Of a stretch of DNA of 64,000 nucleotides, positions 17,321 through 58,555 are shown in pieces (the stretch's first letter is position 1; each line of letters starts with the position of its first letter). Origin of the DNA: Mesaphorura yosii (taxonomy: Eukaryota; Arthropoda; Collembola; Poduromorpha; Tullbergiidae); NCBI GenBank assembly GCA_009869945.1, contig WIXG01000021.1:62001-126000 (forward strand), given 5' to 3'. The notes under the pieces are model-generated. The model did not search any database. It had not been told where the DNA came from and saw only the letters and a program-made list of their open reading frames with translations. The position numbers and the translations under genes were made by a program.

Positions 17321-18140
17321 CTGCAAAGTTCTTTTATATTATTTGGTATGATGATAAAATGCACACCGCACAGTTCACCTTCTCTTTCCAACATGGTGCA
17401 GCTGTGGTACAAGCGCCTCCTGCAGGGAGCGAGAGAATCACAACCACAAAGACCCAAAGGCGATCTCCTCGACCACCACGACCCAACCAAGCTCGATTGC
17501 ACTCTACCGAGAAAATGTAGCTGTACATGAAACAGTACGTGGCCATTGTCTCGTTTTCGTGTCAGGCCAACGAGAAGTTGATGAAAATTCTTGAGATCGT
17601 GTCGGCCGTCAAGTGCCTCTTCGATAAGGAGTTGGAAGCTTTGCGTGGCGTGTGCACGGAAATTACTGGCGATCACCATGCGTGCTTGTGCTTGGGATCG
17701 TGTGCGGGTGCGTCGTCGATTGCCTCATGGATAAGGAATCGGAGGCACAGGAAGTACACACTGCAATTGCGGGAGATCGCAATCAATTGAATTCACTGGC
17801 TTTGTGATGACTGGTGATCCGTCTGGAACTTGCTATTTGATAAGAAATACAATGATTTTGATAGTACTTGCATTAATATTAATATTCCGTGTACGTTGAA
17901 AGATTTGTGATACAATAAATGTTTGACACTGTACTTGGTTAAAAAGTTAAAATGGAGATCCGGAAGACGATGCGGTGAGTTCAGAGCGGAAGCGGATGTT
18001 AGTTTTTTTTTTATTAAACTTGGGCCTGAGAACCAAAATCTGGAAACTTGAAGCTGATTCGAGTGTCTGTCCAGTCGAGTGTCCAGCACGGAGCTAAGGC
18101 CACGGCTAGCCAGCGTCCCACCACGCATAGCCGCAATAAA
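17321..18140. other. Ambiguous region, possible decayed coding sequence
   Basis: From about 17,380 to 17,815 codon-like GC-rich sequence is present on the plus strand, but no single frame holds together. One frame gives ANEKLMKILEIVSAVK... (from 17571); another gives a hydrophobic segment and tail, CVLVLGIVCGCVVDCLMDKE, ending at about 17,810. A stop and a frame change separate them. It may be a relic of the four-pass family downstream. Not annotated as a gene. Confidence 0.3.
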
Positions 18141-19046
18141 ATGCAGTTTATTGTCGGGATCAAAATCGTGGCTTTCGTGTCACTCGTAAGAGCAGAGCAC
18201 GATCTGGTTTATTAACCACCTTGTAATACGAGCTCATTTTGGGTTATATTCCGCAGATTTTTGGTGGCGTTCTTGTCGCGATTTGTGGCATCAGTCTTCA
18301 CGAATTTTTAGCAACGCAATTCAATCTTGGCGTCAAAGACCATGGTAGAACCACTTCAGCTCCTTCAGAATTGCAAGCCAGAGCCGACATTGACGTTGAC
18401 ATCCAACAGCAGCAACAGCGACAGGAAAATTTCTCGCATCCATCGTCGTCGTACAAGCCTTTTCTTCTGGTCGGTGACACGGACACGAAGATCGACATCA
18501 TCACTGAGTCGATTAACGAGCTGAAGATTCACTGGAATGAGTTCAAACCTTGGTTGCTTGGCTCCAGCGGAGTGGCTCTCGTCTCCGGAATCGTACAAGT
18601 GCTATCAAGTGTTTGCATTCTTTGTGCTGGTGGGAAGGTAAGTTTCCCGTTAACGAAACAATTGAGGCAGTAATTAAGTAATTTGAAACCTACAAACTAC
18701 AAAGTGTCAGCCTACTGCAGCCTCTTTTGCGTTTGCTTTCCAGGGAATTCGCCCTCGCTCCAAATTCTGGAAATGTACCCACATCCTCCTTTTCTGTGTC
18801 CTTCTCGCCTCGCTTCTCGCGCCTGTCATCTTCAACATGCAAAACGATTCGACAAAGAGCCTGCAAGAGCTCCTGACCAAAATCGGCGCGAGCCTCCAGT
18901 CGAAGAAAGAGTTTGACAACTTTCGCGTGTCGACGGTCGAGCTGTTTGCGGGAATGATTGCGCTGGACATTGCGGCCGTACTGCTTCTGGTCATTTCTAG
19001 CTGTTGCCTCATGAGGAATACCGACTATGATTACAGAGATGCATAA
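18141..19046 (+). CDS. Four-pass membrane protein of unknown family (copy 1)
   Basis: Three exons, 18141-18185, 18257-18637 and 18744-19046, all joined in phase 0, encode 242 residues. Membrane helices are predicted near 3-30 (VGIKIVAFVSLIFGGVLVAI), about 115-140 (GVALVSGIVQVLSSVCILCA), about 150-175 (THILLFCVLLASLLAPVIF) and about 210-232 (LFAGMIALDIAAVLLLVISS), ending CCLMRN plus an acidic/Tyr tail. The long first extracellular or lumenal loop has a Gln run and acidic residues; the second loop is charged. Topology resembles tetraspan/MARVEL-like proteins, but I see no CCG tetraspanin signature and do not recognise the family. The next gene has the same size, topology and position of the first intron (phase 0 inside helix 1), so the two are probably tandem paralogues. 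Function unknown. Confidence 0.75.
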
Positions 19047-19435
19047 AAGGGCCCAAGTTTTCATAAAATGCCTTAACCGACAGCACGTTTCATTAAATTC
19101 ATTATAATTAAAGCAATTTCCTGTTGTACAACTACTGAAACATGCGTCATCATCTTATTTATAAATCCCATCATGGATTTTCCTCCTGCACTGCAAGTGA
19201 ATTATATTTATATTGCAATTACAATAAGCTAACTTGACTTGAGGGGTCAGTCTCCACATTGCTAATTCGGCTAATTGAAGTAAACTTTATTCTAACTTTA
19301 CGCCGTGGTCGTTTTACGATTCCTGCATTAAGTGAACTCTTGAACGTAGAACGGCTTCAAAATCTTTAAAAAAGAAAAATGATATCCTAACGAGTTCTTA
19401 AAAGCTAGGTGTCCGGTGTTATCTTTCAGCTGGAG
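19047..19435. other. Spacer between tandem four-pass genes
   Basis: AT-rich, with no coding exon. It probably holds the 3' end of the first gene and the 5' untranslated part of the second (acceptor just upstream of 19436). Confidence 0.5.
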
Positions 19436-20255
19436 ATGAAGACAAAGTGCGAGAGATCCTGGCCGTACGTTGCCGTTAAAACACTTTACAGTCTATCAGT
19501 CGTAAGTTTAATTATTGGGCATTAACTTGGCATTTAGCAGTCGAAATCGAAGAATGAAGGCTTGGCCACTCTTATCTGAACAGGTTATTGGCCATGCCAC
19601 ACTCTTAACGAATTGCTGGGCGTTTGGCACACTGATGGCGTACGATCGGGAGTGGAAGTGGGCTTCCTACTCGCAAGAATCAAGAATTAGCAAAGCCAAT
19701 CACAGGGATACCACAACAGCCACAGCACCCGCAGGAGTTCGTGACTACCAAAAGCTCCACCCGCACGTGAGCTGCGTCTGGTCTCGCCTCGATCAAATGT
19801 CTGATTACTTCCAAAGCTTCTTAATCGCCTGCATCTGGATTTCCAATATTGCAATCCTTGGGCAGATTGCTGTTGCAGTAGTCGGTCTGGTCAGTTCGCC
19901 AGGCAAGCTGTCCACCCGATCCGCGTACTGCCTGGTCCCCGTCCAGTTCTCTGTGCTCGTCGCCCTTGTGATCTGCTTCTTCTTGCCGCTGGGCTACAAT
20001 CGGGAGCAGGACGAGCATCACAGCATAACGACATTCAACGACGACATCGTGGCGAAAGTTGGTGAGCTTAGGAAAGCTGGACTCGTGTACTTGTTCCACG
20101 ATCTGAATCTGTTTTACTCCATGCTGGCCGTGGATATAATTGTCTCGTTCGTAGTTATGACATGTACTTGTTGCCTGAGTCAGAGGCTTGCAGCGGTGGT
20201 TTCCGCGAACGCGTACGCGAAGCAGCGTCCGCGTCCGTTCTTAATAAACGCTTAG
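19436..20255 (+). CDS. Four-pass membrane protein of unknown family (copy 2)
   Basis: Two exons, 19436-19501 and 19584-20255, joined in phase 0, encode 245 residues. A splice acceptor (TCTTTCAG) lies just before the start codon, suggesting an untranslated first exon. Predicted helices: near 10-40 (VAVKTLYSLSVVIGHATLLT), near 105-130 (FLIACIWISNIAILGQIAVA), near 142-165 (FSVLVALVICFFLPLGY) and near 205-225 (LAVDIIVSFVVMTCTCCL). The layout matches the upstream gene, and both last helices end in a Cys-Cys pair, but overall sequence similarity is low and copy 2 lacks the second intron. Likely a diverged tandem paralogue. No known domain is recognised; function unknown. Confidence 0.75.
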
Positions 20256-20562: not shown

Positions 20563-23193
20563 ATGGGAATTCTTACGTTTTCCAAGTGCTCGCTGCTCCA
20601 AATCCAATTGTTGGTGATGGCGACTTGCATTGTTGTGGTTGTCAACTCCTGTAGCAGCAGCAGCAATGGGGAATCCGCCGAGAATCCACAGATGCAAATT
20701 TCCACATCACCAAATCACTTGCACTTCGAGTCACGAAATGAAAACGAGAATGTGAACGAGAACGCGAAAATCGTGATGATAACGCGCGTTGGGATCGAAG
20801 TACGTGTCGACTGCTGGGCTCCGTTCCCCATCAACATTGAGTTTGATGGGCATCTGGTACGAAAAGATTTAAAGATTAAGTCTCCTCCCTCGTCCAAGTC
20901 TCAACGGGTTCAATGGTTTTTTTTTTACTTCGATCGTCGTATTGACGGATGATTTTGATTTTTCAGTCGAATCGTGAAATCAAGGTGACCCTTATCAAGC
21001 GATCGTTAACGCCTTTTCCACCCCCTGCGCCAGCATCAGCGCATCAATCCTCCAGCAGCTTCAGCTTCTGCTTTCACATCAACGCGACTCTGGAGTCCTT
21101 CGAGGAGATTACTGGGAACTATTCCTGCTTTAACGCCATAAATCCAAATGCGAGAACTTCGTACTACGTATTTTATTCACGTAAGTTTAAAGTTCATCAT
21201 GTGGAGCACTGATTCAGGTAAAGATCTTTCCAAAATGGTTCTAGCGAGCCCTCCAGCCAGTTTGCTCAACCGCGGCCAGCGCCTCATTGTCGTAAGCAAG
21301 CTTGACCCACGCCAGCGTCCGGCAGAGCCTTCGTCAGCGTCAGCAATTACGATTCCGTGCCCGACGTCAATTCCTAATGTGACAGTGCATTTGTACGACG
21401 TGCGTAATTAGTTAATTAATGCAAGGTATTTAAATTGTGAGCCCTTAACTGTTAACTAAGACAATCTGGTCCTTTGTCGTTTTACAGGACAAAAACACGA
21501 AAATTAACCTCACAGCCTTCGGCATCGAGTACGACCCGCAGATTGGGTTCAGAATCCCGCTTGTGTCGGCCTCCACGTTCTTCCGGCAGGGCAACTTTCA
21601 GTGCAGGACCGAGCTAAGCGATGCTGATAAGGTCGACATTCAGATTGTCCCAGAAAAAAGTGCGTACTCAAGACTTTTGTGAAATTCCTGAAGTGAATTT
21701 AATTGTGCTTCGTAGGTTCCGTCGCCTATCCGTCCCAAAACATTTTCCTTCTTCGGGAGGGCGACCCGCTTCGACTTTCGTGCCTGTCCACCGAAGAGAT
21801 TCTGTTGGAAATCGAAATCGAGTTTGCGAGTGAGAGTGCGGAGAGGCGAATTCATCGAATCATTGGCGATGGACCAAAGATCGTGCGGAATTTGCCGAGT
21901 CCGTACAAGTACAATATAACGTACGTGACGAATAGCTCGCTGCGGGTCGGAGACACTGGTCGCGGGTCATGCCGGCTCAAATCTACGTCCACGTCAACGG
22001 GCAAGACGGAGACTGAGGTCGAGACGAGCACGAGGCTGGTCCATGAATGGGCTTTTGGCGTTCGTAAGTCTTACGAAGATTACCGAAGTAACAAACTTTT
22101 CATAAGGATTCGTTTCAGGGCCGTCAGCCAATGAAAACAACGGCATTGAAGGCTTTAGCCCGTTTTTATGCCAAATCTCCGGTCGGACTGCGATTATAAA
22201 GCTGTTTGCTTGCAATAATTGGGTCGAATGCAATCTTGTCAGATGCAAACGGAATGTAAGTCAGATTAGCATCGGCCAGACCTTTAATTAACTCTCTAAT
22301 CACCCAATTCTACCTTCCACGGTTTAAAGGACCGCACGTGCACGAGCTACGAGTGCAACGATGCGGACACATTCAGGTGTCTCCCCAGCGGGATTATTCA
22401 GTGCTTCAACACCCAGAATGAAAGCACGCAGGAACTGATTTTCTTCACTGGCGTCGGCCTGCCAGTGTCAAGAAACCGAAGCCGGAGTTGGAGCCGGGCA
22501 TACACAAACTGGAAGCACGCACCGAAAAGGGATTTACTGAAGATTCAATCAATTCGGGAGCTCAAACCATTCGAGCGTGATCGCGATCGCGAGACAGACT
22601 CCGACTCAATTTCGGTCGAAATGATCTGTGAGGGATCAGCGTTTGTGGTTGCGGTGGGGTTCAAGTGGTTTCTCAGGGCTCAAAATGGGACTGGGCCCGA
22701 AATTGAGATTCCAGAAGGTAAATTAAAACATCAGACGTGTTCGAGACCTTTCCAAGAGTCACGTTTTGCAATTTCTATTTGTACAGGCCAAATTGATCAC
22801 AAATGGCGGAGTTCAACGGAGAAGCACATCATCAGAAGCATTGCTCGGACCAGCGTGAGGTTGCCGCCGGTGCCTCGAAATTCGCCGACGGCGTCGGAGG
22901 CGGTGGAGGTGAATCAAATTCAAGTCGTGTGCAAGGCTCCGGTCTGGAATTCGACGGAGTGGATCGAAGACTCTGCTCCTTTCTCAAGTAAGCCACTAGA
23001 AGCCCCACTAAAGTACAAATGAGTAAACTTTTATTGATGGATTTCAGAATGGATCAAATGGAATTCGCCTTCAACTCCTTCGCATTCGTCGTCGTCGAAG
23101 ATCTCGAGCACGAATTTCCCTGCACACCTTTTGTCGCCGATTACCGTTTTCATTTTTTTTCTGGTGTACGCATTTACTAAAAAAGTTAGGTAA
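20563..23193 (+). CDS. PVR/VEGFR-like Ig-domain membrane protein lacking a kinase
   Basis: Nine exons: 20563-20856, 20967-21180, 21245-21399, 21488-21659, 21716-22063, 22119-22255, 22330-22717, 22787-22987, 23048-23193. All are in phase, 684 residues. A signal peptide (LLVMATCIVVVVNSCS) is followed by Ig-like domains. The first has VRVDCW and EITGNYSCFNA. The second has IPCPTSIPNVTVHLYD, EYDPQIGFRIPLVSAS and GNFQCRTE, closely resembling the second Ig domain of PDGF/VEGF-type receptors. Further domains are more diverged, with a Cys-rich stretch (CNNWVECNLVRCKRNDRTC). It ends with one hydrophobic helix (LLSPITVFIFFLVYAF) and KKVR, then stop. There is no juxtamembrane region or tyrosine kinase. 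Inference: a membrane-tethered decoy or co-receptor derived from a PVR-type receptor, or a paralogue that lost its kinase. The third exon start is uncertain (alternative acceptor at 21217 would leave a 37-nt intron). AATAAA at 23342-23347. Confidence 0.78.
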
Positions 23194-26100
23194 GGTCGTT
23201 CTAGGAGAAGTTGGGATAACTTGGCACGGCGAACGCACTGCACTGGTGAAAGTTGCGTCATACTATCGCCATCGTGTCATCGTCGGCCGCCTTTGTCGCC
23301 ATTGTCTAGTTGTCATTTATTTATCACGTCGCGTCGTCGTAAATAAAAATACACGCATCACGCATTTATGAATAATACACCTTTTTATTGTGCAATCATA
23401 CTGCATTGAGGCGCAAGGCGACGGGTACGGGTGCGGCACGGGAGCAATCTGCCTTTACCTTCACTCACTTTTAGGCTAGGACGATTTTTTGCGGCGGTTT
23501 CGTCATTAGAATTAATCCCACGACACTGCCGTGCCGTGCCTTCAGTGTACAACGGCGGTGGTGGCGAAGTGCCGTGGCACGCCGATGCTTGACTGTGTTT
23601 GTGAATGATGATATACACGCAATACACGGCAAGGCACATCAAGTTTTTCTGTTTTGTATTCCATTCCAAAGAAAGTACGTCACAATCGATCCGAAAGCCC
23701 ATACTGGAGCCCGTGTTCGCCTTTCACCAGTCGAGCCAAGCCAGTCTCAGTCTTCTAGGCTGGTGAAGGCGAAGAGCCAGCCAGCATGCGCTCTACAATT
23801 TCGTAACCCTTCCTTTCTTGCCTTTTGAAGATTTCTTTCTCCAGCAGTCCAGCGTACAGAAAGCAGCGCCATAAGCCATAAGCTTTTACTCATCTTTCTT
23901 TCCCTGCTGCTGCTACTCATACTACTTTCTCCATTCATCTTGGTCTGGTCTGGCCTGGCCCTAAAGTGAATACAGTTTCAGATTCAGAACGGAATCGGAT
24001 GGATCCAGATTCGATTCGAGCAAGTGTTCGTGTTTAGCATTCTGTACTGCACACAGCTGCTGTTTAAGTTGGGTCGCTACTATCGGATGTTGCTGCTCCT
24101 CCTGCTCTATATTTATATAGCAGCACTCCTTTACACTTTAGACGGACGTGGACTCGTTTCTATTTCATCTTCTTGACTGTTGGTGTTCGCCCAGTTTTCA
24201 GTTCGCAGTTTCCAGTACAGTTTCCATTTTTATCGTCGTACTCGTTTCCAAGATCGTGGGTAGGAGCCCAGACCAAGACCAAGTGAAAGTAAATTTACAC
24301 TTCCAGCGAAACGAAAGCAGACCACCGGAGTGGGTGACGGTGACTGGCAGACAGTGACAGAGAAGAAAGTTGTACAACTCGGTCAGGTCGCTGGTTTGTA
24401 GGTTTGGTGCTAGCTTAGCATTCTGAATGCTAAAAGCTAAGTGGTAGTAAAGTGGGAGCAGTCACAGTCAGCGAATCAACAAACAGTCAGTCACAGTAAA
24501 ACGAGCGCGAGGAGCGCAGCATAAGGCAGAAAAAGGAAGATTAGAAGATTTCCTCCCAGAGTCAGTGAGTTTTCTACTACTGGAAAGGCACAAAGACATA
24601 AAGGAGCTGCCAATTTATTGCTGCTTCACGTCAGTCGTAAACGCATCCATCAGTCCCCAAGAAGTTTATGGTCCATTAAGTCAATTACTCACGCTCAACA
24701 AATCAAATCAACACAAGGAACAAAGCCCAGGTAAGTTTATTAGAAACAGGTTATTTTAGGTGTTAGGCATTCGTATTAGGTTCGCTAGGTATTGGCACAT
24801 TGAATTGGAAGATGTCGATATTATTTATAGCCATAGCTGTGTAGGCTACAGCTGCGGGCTGCAGGCGCTGACAAGCCTATTTTGAGTGCTGCTCACCTGA
24901 GATCGTAGGTAGTCAGACACACGGGCACAGGCACACGTTGTGCAGCCTGCAGCTCGAACGAACGGCTCGAAGGTCAATAAAAATAGGGTGTAGTAAAGCG
25001 TAGCGACTAGCGAGTACGTCTCCGTGTCCCGAGCCCATGTTTTAATCGTATTACGCAATATTTGGATACAACAAACAAAAGCGAGTATGCGAAGCCAAGC
25101 CAGGCTCTTGTTTTGACAAATCTGGCCGATCGTGGTCATGGATCGTGATCGGATCCTATTTGCTATTGCTATTTCTATTGCTCTGCGATGGTAATCGTAA
25201 TCTAAAGTACAATACAAAAGCAAAGTCATGCGAGGCCAGCTAGCACTCAGCAGAACAATGCCAGTAGAAAGTCGAAGCTTTGCGTTAAAAGCACGGTTGG
25301 ATAAAGGAATACTTTCTGGAAAAGGAAAAGCAGCAGCAGCCAAGCCAAGTCGTGCGAGGCGAGGCGAGGCCAATAAAAGTAATTGCCCAACAGCTGCTGG
25401 CTGGATGGCTGCGTGCTGACTCGACTGGCTTTAAATACAAAGGCTTCGATGATGAGTCGTCTTATCTTTTAATGTGTATGGACATGACTAAGCTTTCCAT
25501 TCCATTCCAAGAAGAGAAGCAAGAGAAGCATCCATTCGAGGAGAGAGGATTTTAATCCAGTAGACGTGCGAATGCGAGTGCGAATAATCAACACTTCCAA
25601 TTAATACGTGCACGTAATATTCCATGCTGACAGCAAGCAGTTGGCTGCCAGTCTGCCACGCCACGCTGCTGCGGTTTTGTGGGTTTCCGTTCACTGCCTT
25701 GTCTTTGACTTGTGAAAATATGGAACGACTGACTCACGACGTGGCCCGTAGCCCGTGGAATGTGGATTAGGATTATGGATTATGCTAGAACACGGCCACA
25801 GCGACTCCATTATATTATATTAGCCGTGATCGTGCTCATGTTCTTGCTCCTGTCAAATTATTACAGACTGATTCAGTATTTCGTACTCGGTTTGCATACA
25901 AATAGCCGAAATAGCTATTGCTATTAGTCAGTGAGATTCACACTTGTACAATTCCAGAAGCAGAGCAGAGCACGGAGAAGAGCAGGTGCATTGTGCATTG
26001 TGTTTTGTAGTGCACGCTCGCTCCGATTTCTGGAAGGGCATGTCATCATCTCATTCTCATCCTCATCATTGCCATTAAGAGCGTCTGTTCCTATTGTTTT

Positions 26101-37723: not shown

Positions 37724-40700
37724 ATGGCGCCCTACGGCATCTTGCACTCAATACAGCTTGGCCTGTTGACAATTTTGGTCTCTCTGCCGGCAATTCTTCC
37801 TCTGATGTGGGTGGCTGATCAGGATTCGGTGATCATGGAGGGTAAGCCACGTTTAGCAGAAATTGAACGAAGTCAGCAACCTTTGTTCGTTGACTTATTA
37901 TGTGGAGAGATTTGTCATTTTTGATATCGAAGCGAACTATGTTTAAAGCTCGTCGGTTGGCATAAACAACCGCCGTAACAATCTTTGCGTAAAAGTCAAA
38001 TAGTTTGTCCGTAGGTATTTAATCTCTCTTAGACTTTAAGGGCGAATCAAAGTAATAATGATTTTTGTAAATAATTGAATTGTATAAATTATTTATTCAA
38101 TTACTGAATGATAACTCAAAGTAAAGTTAACTTCAAACTGCCGCAAATCGCGTTAAGTGTCGAGTCCATTGATGATTGTGTTTGGTGAGGCATGCCCAGC
38201 ATTTTCAACGTCAACGATGGGTCGCCCGGTGCTGGTCCAGGCGTCGCTGTAGGCCTCACAAGGCACTTCAACCTCAAGCAGAGCCGAACAACGCAGAGAA
38301 TCAATAACGAAATGCAGCAGCTGATGATCGGCGGGGACGAGGCGGCGTACGGCGAGTTCGGGCAGCCCATTCCCGTCGACGAAATCCCGTCCTTCACTGA
38401 TTTCAGGAAGATAACCGAACCACCCAGCGAGATTTCCATACACGACAAGAATGTGCATGCTGGCATCGGTGCAGAGGGCGAAGGGCAAGGTGGAGGCTTC
38501 GGAGACGTCGGCGGCGGCCACGGCAAGAAGGATCTCGAAGGCACGCTGCGGGCGATCACCGAACAAGTCGACACGATGCCCGACTCTGGCTTCATTCACA
38601 AATACTGGCTGCAATATTCCTGGTACAAGACATTCCGCTCCATTCTTCTCGTGTCCGACCGCCCGACGATCCACCGCGCCGCGTACCGCTCCTCCGTGTC
38701 GATATTCAGCGAGAGAGCTCGCCACCTGGCCACATTTCCAAACACCATCCATCCGTACAGTCTTTTCCGGTGGTACTGGGACATCTTCCTCATCACCGTC
38801 CTCCTCGTCACCCTCGTCGTCGAACCAATTCGAATGACATTCTACTTCGAGCGGCTACTGAACGATACGACTCAGCTCAGATACAGCTTCGTCATCACGG
38901 TCACCTTCACCGTCGACATCTTCCTCAACTTTACGACGGGAGTCGCGAATCGGCGGAACGATCAAGTCAGTTTGGATCCGAGGATGATACGAAGGCACTA
39001 CTGCGGGACGTGGCTCGTCATTGACTTAGTCTCGACAATCCCGTACGATTTGATCTACGCGCTCGTGGAGGAGAGAAGCACGCACGGTGACTGGGATCAC
39101 GACCCCACCCATCTCGACCTTCGAATGTGGACTCGATTGCTGGAATTCCTGAAGCTGCTTCGACTCCCGAGGCTAATTCGCTATCTGGACAGGATCGAAA
39201 GGGTAAATTTGCCTAATTCACATCACTAAAAAACTCCGAAGTCCTTGTTTGGATTTACCGCCACCGCTAAATGTCCAGGCTGAAGAGGTTCCAGGCGTCT
39301 ACAAGCGGTTCATCAACCTCCTCATCGAGATGCTCCTCCTCGTGCACTGGATCACATGCTTCCATTTCCTGATCCCTGACCTGGCACGTGAACGATTTAC
39401 ACCTGAGGAGTACGCGAGAGAAAAATCCAGCTGGATCTCCCAACGGGGAATGTGGAATGCGACGGTGGGAACAAAATACATCACGGGGATCCTCCGCACA
39501 ATCTCTGCCATGTTTTGTGTCACGCTTGGACACGAGGCTGTCATCGAACCAGAAGAGATTCTGCTCATGATCACGAACGTGCTCGTCGGAGTGATTACGC
39601 TCGCCCTCTTCACAGCGCAGGTGTCGACCATTCTCGCGACGAAGGGCGTGAGCGAGACGAAATACTTTGAGATGACGACTGAAGTCGAAGAATACCTCAA
39701 ATTCAAACAAGTGCCCATCGAACTCCATAATCGGATACTTCTCTACTACAAATCCCGCTACCAATCGAACTTCTTCAATGAGGAGGCCATCTTGCATTCG
39801 CTGTCCGACGTCCTCCGCCGCGATGTCCTCATGTTCAACTGCCGCCAGCTGATTGAGAACGTGCCCATCTTCCAAGGGCTTCCGCAGCTCGTCATTTACG
39901 CGCTCGTGACGAAGCTGCATTTTGAGCTGTACCTGCCACTCGATTTAGTCATCAAAAAGAATACCGTCGGCGAGTCGATGTATTTTATCGAGCATGGGCT
40001 CGTCACAATTCTGCAAGAGAACGGAAGCGTCGTGGGCCACCTGAAAGACGGCGACTTCTTTGGTGAGCTGTCACTCGTCTCGCTGGAGAGGAGAACCGAG
40101 TCCATCGTCGCGACAAGCAAGTGCGACATTTACAGACTGGACAGGTCGGATTTCAATCAAGTCATGGAGCACTACCCGGAGATTCTGGATAGAATTCTGC
40201 AGATTTCAAACGTGCGGATGCGGGCGACGAATTTGGAGAGGGCGCAGCAGAAGCAGCAGCGGCAGGACCTGGACGGCGATCGTTTCGAGATGAACATGGA
40301 AATAGACACTAATAACGAAAACGTGGATTTTGACCACGATCAAGATTTGGGTTGGCGCGAGCGTCCGAATTTTCTCGTCAGGAAAGAAGCGTCGGCGTCG
40401 ACAGCGTCGTCGGAGGAATTGAAGGAGATTCCATTGAATAGAACGGGCGAGTTTGGACAAAAAGTAGCGGTAGCGAATGAAAGAAATGTGGGTGGCACGG
40501 ACACGGTTTCCAGCTCCTTGTCTTCAAGTTCATCGGGCAGTTCAACGAGTATAACGACAGTACCTGCAGCTTCGACTCCTCAAAATCCTAAACCTCCCAA
40601 TTTCAAGAATTCGAAAGTGTGAAATACGAAAGATTTCAGAACACTCGAAATAAAGACGATAGAGATTTGTGCGGTGACTGAAATTCATTTGCTTAATGTT

Positions 40701-57880: not shown

Positions 57881-58555
57881 ATGACAGACATAAGGCGATT
57901 ATTTTCCATTTTCATATTTCTTGCTCGAGCTCGTATAGTGTTGATTTTGGAATGCAATGCGATTCCGGTCACGGTCACGCCGAGCAGCGCAAGCAATGCA
58001 AGCCAGGACACGGACACGACTGACGTAATTGCCGTCACCTTTCCGATCACCGTCACAGGGAAACCGGCGACGCGCGTTGTTATTACTTGCACTCATGCAC
58101 CGAAGAAACGACAAGCAGCGAGTTTCTATCATCGCATCGATTTCCTGTCTCCATGCTATTTTCAGTGCCTGTTGCTGTGCTCGGTTTTGAAACTGGAATC
58201 TTCGGAAAGCCACGACCTGGCCGTAAGCATGGAGATGGCCATGGAACTTGTACCAGCGAACGACCAACCGAGGAGAGCTGGAAACGCTGAAAGTGGAAAC
58301 GGGAGATCTTCCAGTCCAGCTGCCTTTCGGTTTCGGCTCGGTTCTCGACTCTTGCCTCTCACTGGCCTGCTATGCTGGACGGATGACTGGAAAGCTGGAT
58401 GCTGTGCGTGTGCCCTGACGTGGCTGCAAGGCATAAACGAAACCGGCGCTTCCCAGTACGAGTCTGTCGGGAGTCGGAACGGACTTGCCTGCAGACTGCA
58501 ACGCATTAGCATTAACATCAACATCTTTCGCAGTCGCATCAAATCCCACTCGTGA
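57881..58555 (+). other. Uncharacterised 224-codon open frame
   Basis: An ATG-initiated open frame of 224 codons with a hydrophobic start (LFSIFIFLARARIVLILE) stands alone in a long non-coding region. No domain, no homologous family and no splice context are recognised. Other frames over the same stretch are also open, which points to base composition rather than coding. Listed as a candidate only. Confidence 0.15.

Follow-up and report, generated by a model that had tools for sequence, protein, structure and literature searches.

A candidate PVR/VEGFR-type receptor gene without a kinase, and its relatives, in the genome of the collembolan Mesaphorura yosii

The locus and its gene model

We analyzed a window of 64 kb of the Mesaphorura yosii genome (contig C21, positions 62001-126000; the assembly comprises 93.0 Mb in 1127 contigs). 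The gene described here, hereafter the window gene, occupies positions 20563-23193 of this window on the forward strand. It has nine exons, all in phase and joined across GT-AG introns (phases 0,1,0,1,1,0,1,1), which together yield 684 codons plus a stop; GC at third codon positions is 61% in the exons, against 37% GC in the introns. Its features are listed below, with D1 to D6 denoting the successive parts of the ectodomain and bit scores referring to an HMM built from six relatives.

20563..20856, + strand: exon 1, hydrophobic segment at the N-terminus, a putative signal peptide, then the first half of D1 (VRVDCWAPFPINIEFDG); D1 scores 34.7 bits, best shuffle 3.7
20967..21180, + strand: exon 2, second half of D1
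21245..21399, + strand: exon 3, first half of D2 (IPCPTSIPNVTVHLY); PF21339 match at aa 202-266 with E=2e-4, below cut-off; VEGFR1/2 matches of the family profile
21488..21659, + strand: exon 4, second half of D2 (IEYDPQIGFRI ... FQC); D2 scores 36.9 bits, best shuffle 0.8
21716..22063, + strand: exon 5, D3 region; alone without a match to the family HMM
22119..22255, + strand: exon 6, start of the cysteine-rich D4, by alignment; D4 alone not above shuffles
22330..22717, + strand: exon 7, D4 with the FFTG motif region, and the D5 region; can be aligned with paralogues and with C147
22718..22786, + strand: intron 7, 69 bp, in frame and stop-free; possible retained-intron form
22787..22987, + strand: exon 8, D6 region with CKAPVWNSTEW; resembles C1038 (CFAPVWNTSDW), C377 and C331
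23048..23193, + strand: exon 9, stalk, membrane helix (23128-23175, aa 664-679; hydropathy only), tail TKKVR and stop TAA (23191-23193)
23188..23195, + strand: donor-like site containing the stop codon (TAG/GTAAGG at 23190), from splice-site scoring
23342..23347, + strand: AATAAA, candidate polyadenylation signal, 149 bases 3' of the stop codon

The initial annotation had read nine in-phase exons encoding 684 residues and then a stop; the GT-AG joining, the third-position GC and the stop codon at the end of the model (which closes with SPITVFIFFLVYAFTKKVR) all bear this out. The two strongest hydropathy peaks of the protein lie at its ends, the N-terminal one with its best 19 residues at aa 9-27, the C-terminal one at aa 662-680. 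By hydropathy alone, the latter corresponds to a single membrane helix peaking at aa 664-679 and followed by only five residues before the stop. The single helix and basic KKVR tail described earlier were thus recovered, with the tail reading TKKVR.

Upstream of the gene, two adjacent open regions (18140-20255) look by eye like small multi-span membrane proteins. Downstream, Rab3 begins 3.2 kb past the stop codon. Further along the window, long open frames at 38192-40622 resemble by eye a cyclic-nucleotide-gated or HCN-type channel, and clustered open frames between 34500 and 55300 resemble, also by eye, clip-domain serine proteases or their N-terminal parts.

The ectodomain and the search for a kinase

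Searched on its own against PDB, the window protein gave nothing relevant (one irrelevant match, E 0.62). The Pfam search of the 684-residue model, which had been proposed as a check, returned a single match, to PF21339 (VEGFR-1-like Ig; E=2e-4), with a score of 21.5 bits that is under the curated cut-off of 27. We also built a D1-D2 profile from five family members including the window protein and compared it with 177,635 PDB sequences, accepting E up to 10. Of the 17 matches, ranks 1-10 were VEGFR2 or VEGFR1 (E 7.2e-5 to 0.0021). PDGFRA (twice) and PDGFRB followed at ranks 11-13 without reaching significance (E 0.15 to 0.5), and the remaining four, all with E of at least 0.5, were CHRAC-14, DIP-theta (an Ig protein) and a pair of unrelated chains. 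No FGFR appeared among these 17 matches, and thus no FGFR-type Ig domain was indicated; the sub-cut-off PF21339 match and the family profile both point to a second Ig domain of VEGFR type.

The window protein is 18-20% identical to its six relatives, and scored 91.1 bits against their HMM (best of 200 shuffles 1.7). In the same HMM, the best shuffle reached 1.0 both for aa 395-660 (12.7 bits) and for aa 500-660 (2.9 bits); D4 alone (aa 395-500) scored 0.5 bits, equalled by 2 of 200 shuffles, and D3 (aa 279-395), assigned by position only, had no match. Judged by their scores against shuffles, D1 and D2 are secure, D4-D6 have joint support and D3 has none. Within this putative row of Ig domains Pfam recognises D2 only; D1 and D4-D6 are assigned by alignment. 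Two profile tests and the homology to relatives, among them the kinase-bearing C147, support a PVR/VEGFR-type ectodomain, consistent with the VEGFR domain-2 features noted in the initial annotation. The idea of an LDLa domain in the cysteine-rich region was rejected: Pfam found neither LDLa nor CBM14 in the window protein, and the region aligns with D4 of the relatives.

For kinases, we built an HMM from the C147 kinase and five others of this genome, and ran it on the window and 23 loci. In the 64-kb window, read in six frames over open stretches of at least 20 aa, there was no match at E<0.05, nor did any frame of the window contain the catalytic-loop pattern (HRD, HCD or HGD). A narrower scan of kinase motifs gave one stray DFG-like match at 57940. 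As positive controls, the HMM recovered the C147 kinase exons (E 6e-62 and 4e-61) and also matched kinase exons in C806 and C949, loci in which kinases were already known. Its further matches were to a 30-residue scrap in C567 (E 4e-6), a stretch of C572 on the opposite strand (E 2e-5) and C1038:5766 (E 0.003). Contig C21 was also absent from the kinase places of the genome, among the strongest matches listed. The earlier reading, in which no kinase exon precedes Rab3, is therefore upheld, and extends to the whole window: the window protein is kinase-less, unless a kinase lies outside the window. Since the split tyrosine kinase of PVR, VEGFR and PDGFR was not found, we class the window gene as a PVR-derived kinase-less receptor and not as a PVR kinase.

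Relatives of the two receptor halves in the genome

Relatives were found using as queries the window protein, PF21339, three relatives and C126; the paralogue comparisons use exon pieces joined by eye, so that junctions may be off by some residues. The window protein itself matched, outside its own locus, only C822 (E 0.0039, 30% identity), apart from three matches with E >0.1. PF21339 matched four places across the genome, with only C147 over the cut-off; the D2 of the window gene, split by an intron, was missing from these matches. C147 carries the separate full-length PVR gene for which the initial annotation had advised a search (+ strand, ~53.8-58.2 kb): a signal region, D1, D2, Ig domains, a helix and a kinase with HGDLATRN and DFG. 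Compared with PDB, this kinase had on top of its best 60 of 814 matches an EGFR-named entry (9p9u, two matched stretches), followed by VEGFR2, PDGFRA, FLT3, VEGFR1, KIT and CSF1R, with two FGFR1 last. A PVR-like gene in C567 (- strand, 22.8-18.9 kb) has a helix at ~20.2 kb and, 1.2 kb further, the 30-residue kinase remnant, and is possibly an intermediate in kinase loss.

Eight kinase-less genes could be read to their C-terminal end: the window gene, C822a and C822b (tandem copies), C126, C473, C377, C331 and C1038. In the seven sister genes we examined about 4-14 kb of sequence beyond each, where the sole kinase HMM match, C1038:5766, came from a following serine/threonine-type kinase gene. 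Against an HMM of the other seven, C1038 scored 138.8 bits (best of 200 shuffles 7.7), C377 105.4 (3.5) and C331 55.9 (1.4); without the membrane-near Ig part the scores were 103.4 (shuffle 2.5), 61.0 (6.4) and 18.1 (2.4), respectively. The matches of C331 are limited to D5, D6 and the Ig and helix part, and its D1-D2 were not identified, making it the least certain member. Left outside this classification were C154 (a partial copy of C147), the fragments C572, C643, C914 and a third C822 stretch, C56 (near a contig start), and the weak C5 and C806.

These sisters share the ectodomain family and the lack of a detected kinase with the window gene; they differ from it in having an extra Ig domain before the membrane or the C-terminus, in the membrane-bound ones longer tails and, in some, LDLa or CBM14 domains. 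LDLa was recognised over two stretches of C126 (9e-16) and in C473 (4.5e-11); the match of C822a, from pieces joined by eye, is weak and below cut-off (5e-4). C473 (- strand, 38.3-35.6 kb) combines LDLa and Ig domains with a C-terminal chitin-binding CBM14 (1.8e-5); with no visible helix, it is probably secreted. The other sisters have a helix and a tail of ~25-60 residues by eye, and no tail read in the sister genes ends in KKXX. In a ten-member alignment, the window protein parallels its relatives up to the D6 motif, and is the only member without the membrane-proximal Ig domain, which is partly missing in C331 and C473.

The phylogeny of the Ig domains suggested earlier resolved part of the family: the LDLa group had a bootstrap of 100 and C1038+C377 of 98. 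The place of the window gene was unsupported (C1038+C377+C331 to its exclusion, 56; the window gene with C1038+C377, 0.13 in FastTree), and both one and several kinase losses are compatible with the tree. Overall, with about eight kinase-less genes in one genome, the window gene seems to belong to a family of traps or partner receptors for growth factors and not to be a one-off.

The kinase half is multiplied as well. A degenerate DNA pattern for the HGD loop occurred at 59 places in the genome (33 on the + and 26 on the - strand; the reversed-pattern control gave 0), none of them in C21. The loop reads HGDLAxRN in 58 and HGDFAARN in one; C646:18304, C789:18474, C387:55266 and C604:28391 are examples. 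In the PVRs of decapod crustaceans, HGDLA delimits the PVR motif, a single exception being named (PMC11024359). In the best 60 PDB matches of the C789 and C387 kinases, an EGFR entry was followed by VEGFR and PDGFRA, and then by FGFR or FLT3 and CSF1R. These two and C147 are the three kinases of the 59 compared in this way, so that "PVR-type", applied to all 59, is an assignment by motif. Among the loci read, only C147 joins a PVR-type Ig ectodomain to a kinase; most of the 59 lie outside that reading, and diverged ectodomains were possibly missed.

Upstream of these loops, on the same strand and within 6 kb, we found a Peptidase_S8 match at five of the 59 loci, and a CLCA match likewise at five. 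In C789 (L004:1-2463), a subtilase (Pfam 6.5e-28), a helix and a VEGFR/PDGFR-like kinase share one open frame. The usual motif around the subtilase catalytic serine is GTSxA; the region reads GTNRA in C789, so this protease may be dead. A single open frame at C539:27105-28500 (L048) similarly holds a kelch propeller (Pfam 3e-18), a helix and the start of a PVR-type kinase. A separate pattern search, with a 30-base pattern of the TTAGG repeat, gave 21 matches on 5 contigs, overlapping registers counted, as is in keeping with an arthropod.

Possible roles of the window gene

Among known systems, the closest are the class III/V receptor tyrosine kinases (PVR/VEGFR/PDGFR, including Drosophila Pvr and crustacean PVR1/PVR2), which the window protein resembles in its VEGFR-type D2 and single helix, and with whose kinase-bearing member C147 its D1 and D4-D6 align. 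Unlike them, it lacks the juxtamembrane region, the kinase and the membrane-proximal Ig domain, and has a tail of five residues. Growth-factor receptor ectodomains without a kinase are known elsewhere. Soluble VEGFR1 (sFlt-1) is a VEGFR ectodomain without kinase that acts as a ligand sink, and is a secreted alternative product of a kinase gene, whereas here the VEGFR-type ectodomain has a separate gene and a membrane helix. FGFRL1, the kinase-less fifth FGF receptor, is likewise encoded by its own gene as an ectodomain on a membrane anchor, an arrangement also found in the window protein. The two differ in Ig family (the profile matches VEGFR, not FGFR) and in the tail, here of five residues; the intracellular domain of FGFRL1 has a zinc-binding motif, according to the title of PMC2806250.

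VEGFRs have seven extracellular Ig-like domains. For crustacean PVRs, PMC11024359 describes two to five Ig-like domains plus a kinase. Its Table 1 takes 61 PVR sequences from two branchiopod species, and large arthropod PVR sets are thus already in print. The same paper mentions a subclade outside PVR1/PVR2 that matched low-density lipoprotein receptors; this subclade may have a connection to the LDLa-bearing genes found here. A kinase-less PVR gene family in an arthropod was found neither among the titles and abstract starts returned by our searches of an open-licence library nor in the excerpts of PMC11024359 and PMC10328876. Kinase-less growth-factor receptors as such are known (FGFRL1, sFlt-1); the set of about eight PVR-type ones in one genome is new as far as these searches go.

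A protein that has D1-D2 of PVR type but no enzyme would most simply bind ligand without signalling, as a decoy or inactive partner. We consider it reasonably probable that the window gene encodes a dedicated non-signalling receptor of PDGF/VEGF type, a membrane-anchored decoy or co-receptor. The protein would enter the secretory pathway, and its outer Ig domains would bind PDGF/VEGF-like ligands; having no kinase, it would divert ligand from signalling receptors, pair with them as an inactive partner, or present ligand. This reading is strengthened by the seven other genes of kinase-less architecture, since the number of such separate genes argues for a function kept in the family. Ligands of this kind probably exist in the genome, as PDGF-family matches occur at five places, three of which attain or exceed the Pfam cut-off (best E 1.6e-5); C527, C53 and C696 are loci of PDGF/VEGF-like proteins. 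Speaking against it are the 18-20% identity, the lack of a close paralogue in the search with the window protein alone, the sub-cut-off Pfam match and the D3 without a match, a domain that in vertebrate receptors contributes to ligand binding.

The same divergence would fit an ectodomain that no longer binds PDGF/VEGF and has been re-used as a recognition receptor for microbes or matrix, its LDLa and chitin-binding sisters being recognition proteins likewise. The LDLa (weak in C822a) and CBM14 domains of sister genes and the tandem copies in C822 point in this direction; however, preservation in the window protein is best in D1 and D2, and the protein itself has no LDLa or CBM14 match, and we regard this explanation as rather unlikely. 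A broader scenario, which we put forward as speculative and quite doubtful, is the dismantling of an ancestral PVR: the half that binds ligand would have multiplied as kinase-less membrane or secreted proteins (some with LDLa or chitin-binding domains), and the kinase half to dozens of copies joined to ectodomains of foreign type, namely subtilase, CLCA and kelch. Kinase-less binders and foreign-headed kinases would then cooperate in a large recognition system specific to this lineage, with the window gene as one of its sensors. About eight kinase-less PVR-type genes and dozens of PVR-loop kinases in a small genome would offer a natural experiment on the separation of receptor halves. They would suggest an origin, apart from vertebrates and in number, of receptors that act as decoys or partners in PDGF/VEGF-like signalling; whether the kinase-less genes serve to buffer PVF signalling or have been co-opted for recognition is testable.

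The T-K-K-V-R-stop directly after the helix has the form of KKXX, the dilysine retrieval signal of type I proteins. The protein could accordingly be an ER-resident trap that retains ligands, or partner receptors, early in the secretory pathway. We think this very doubtful: the coat might not reach a tail of five residues, no tail read in the sister genes is KKXX, and an alternative tail is possible.

Nor do we give much chance to the window gene being a former PVR truncated of its kinase and now drifting. Decay does happen in the PVR-like family, given the scrap to which the kinase of C567 is reduced and the apparent fragments or partial copy in C572, C643 and C154, and the window gene is itself without the membrane-proximal Ig domain. 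Its nine clean exons, with no stop or frameshift, its GC3 of 61% against 37% in introns and its candidate polyadenylation signal speak for an intact gene.

The reading as a decoy or co-receptor must also accommodate alternative products. The donor-like site at the stop codon is the strongest of the gene, its score being reached by 0.4% of the GTs in the window; with the stop codon inside it, an isoform with another short tail is possible. A kinase-bearing isoform spliced from this site, favoured by a donor score above those of all eight donors used, is extremely improbable, as the kinase HMM has no match in the 40 kb downstream inside the window, Rab3 follows 3.2 kb on, single-exon continuations before it reach 116 aa at most, and those from the twelve best acceptors show nothing kinase-like by eye. 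We also discarded the idea that the stop codon is the relic of a splice site once leading to a kinase, because the post-helix intron of C147 has phase 0 (by eye) and the site here phase 2, in a single comparison. Finally, automatic exon joining read straight through intron 7, which is in frame and stop-free, so that a retained-intron form of 707 aa is possible.
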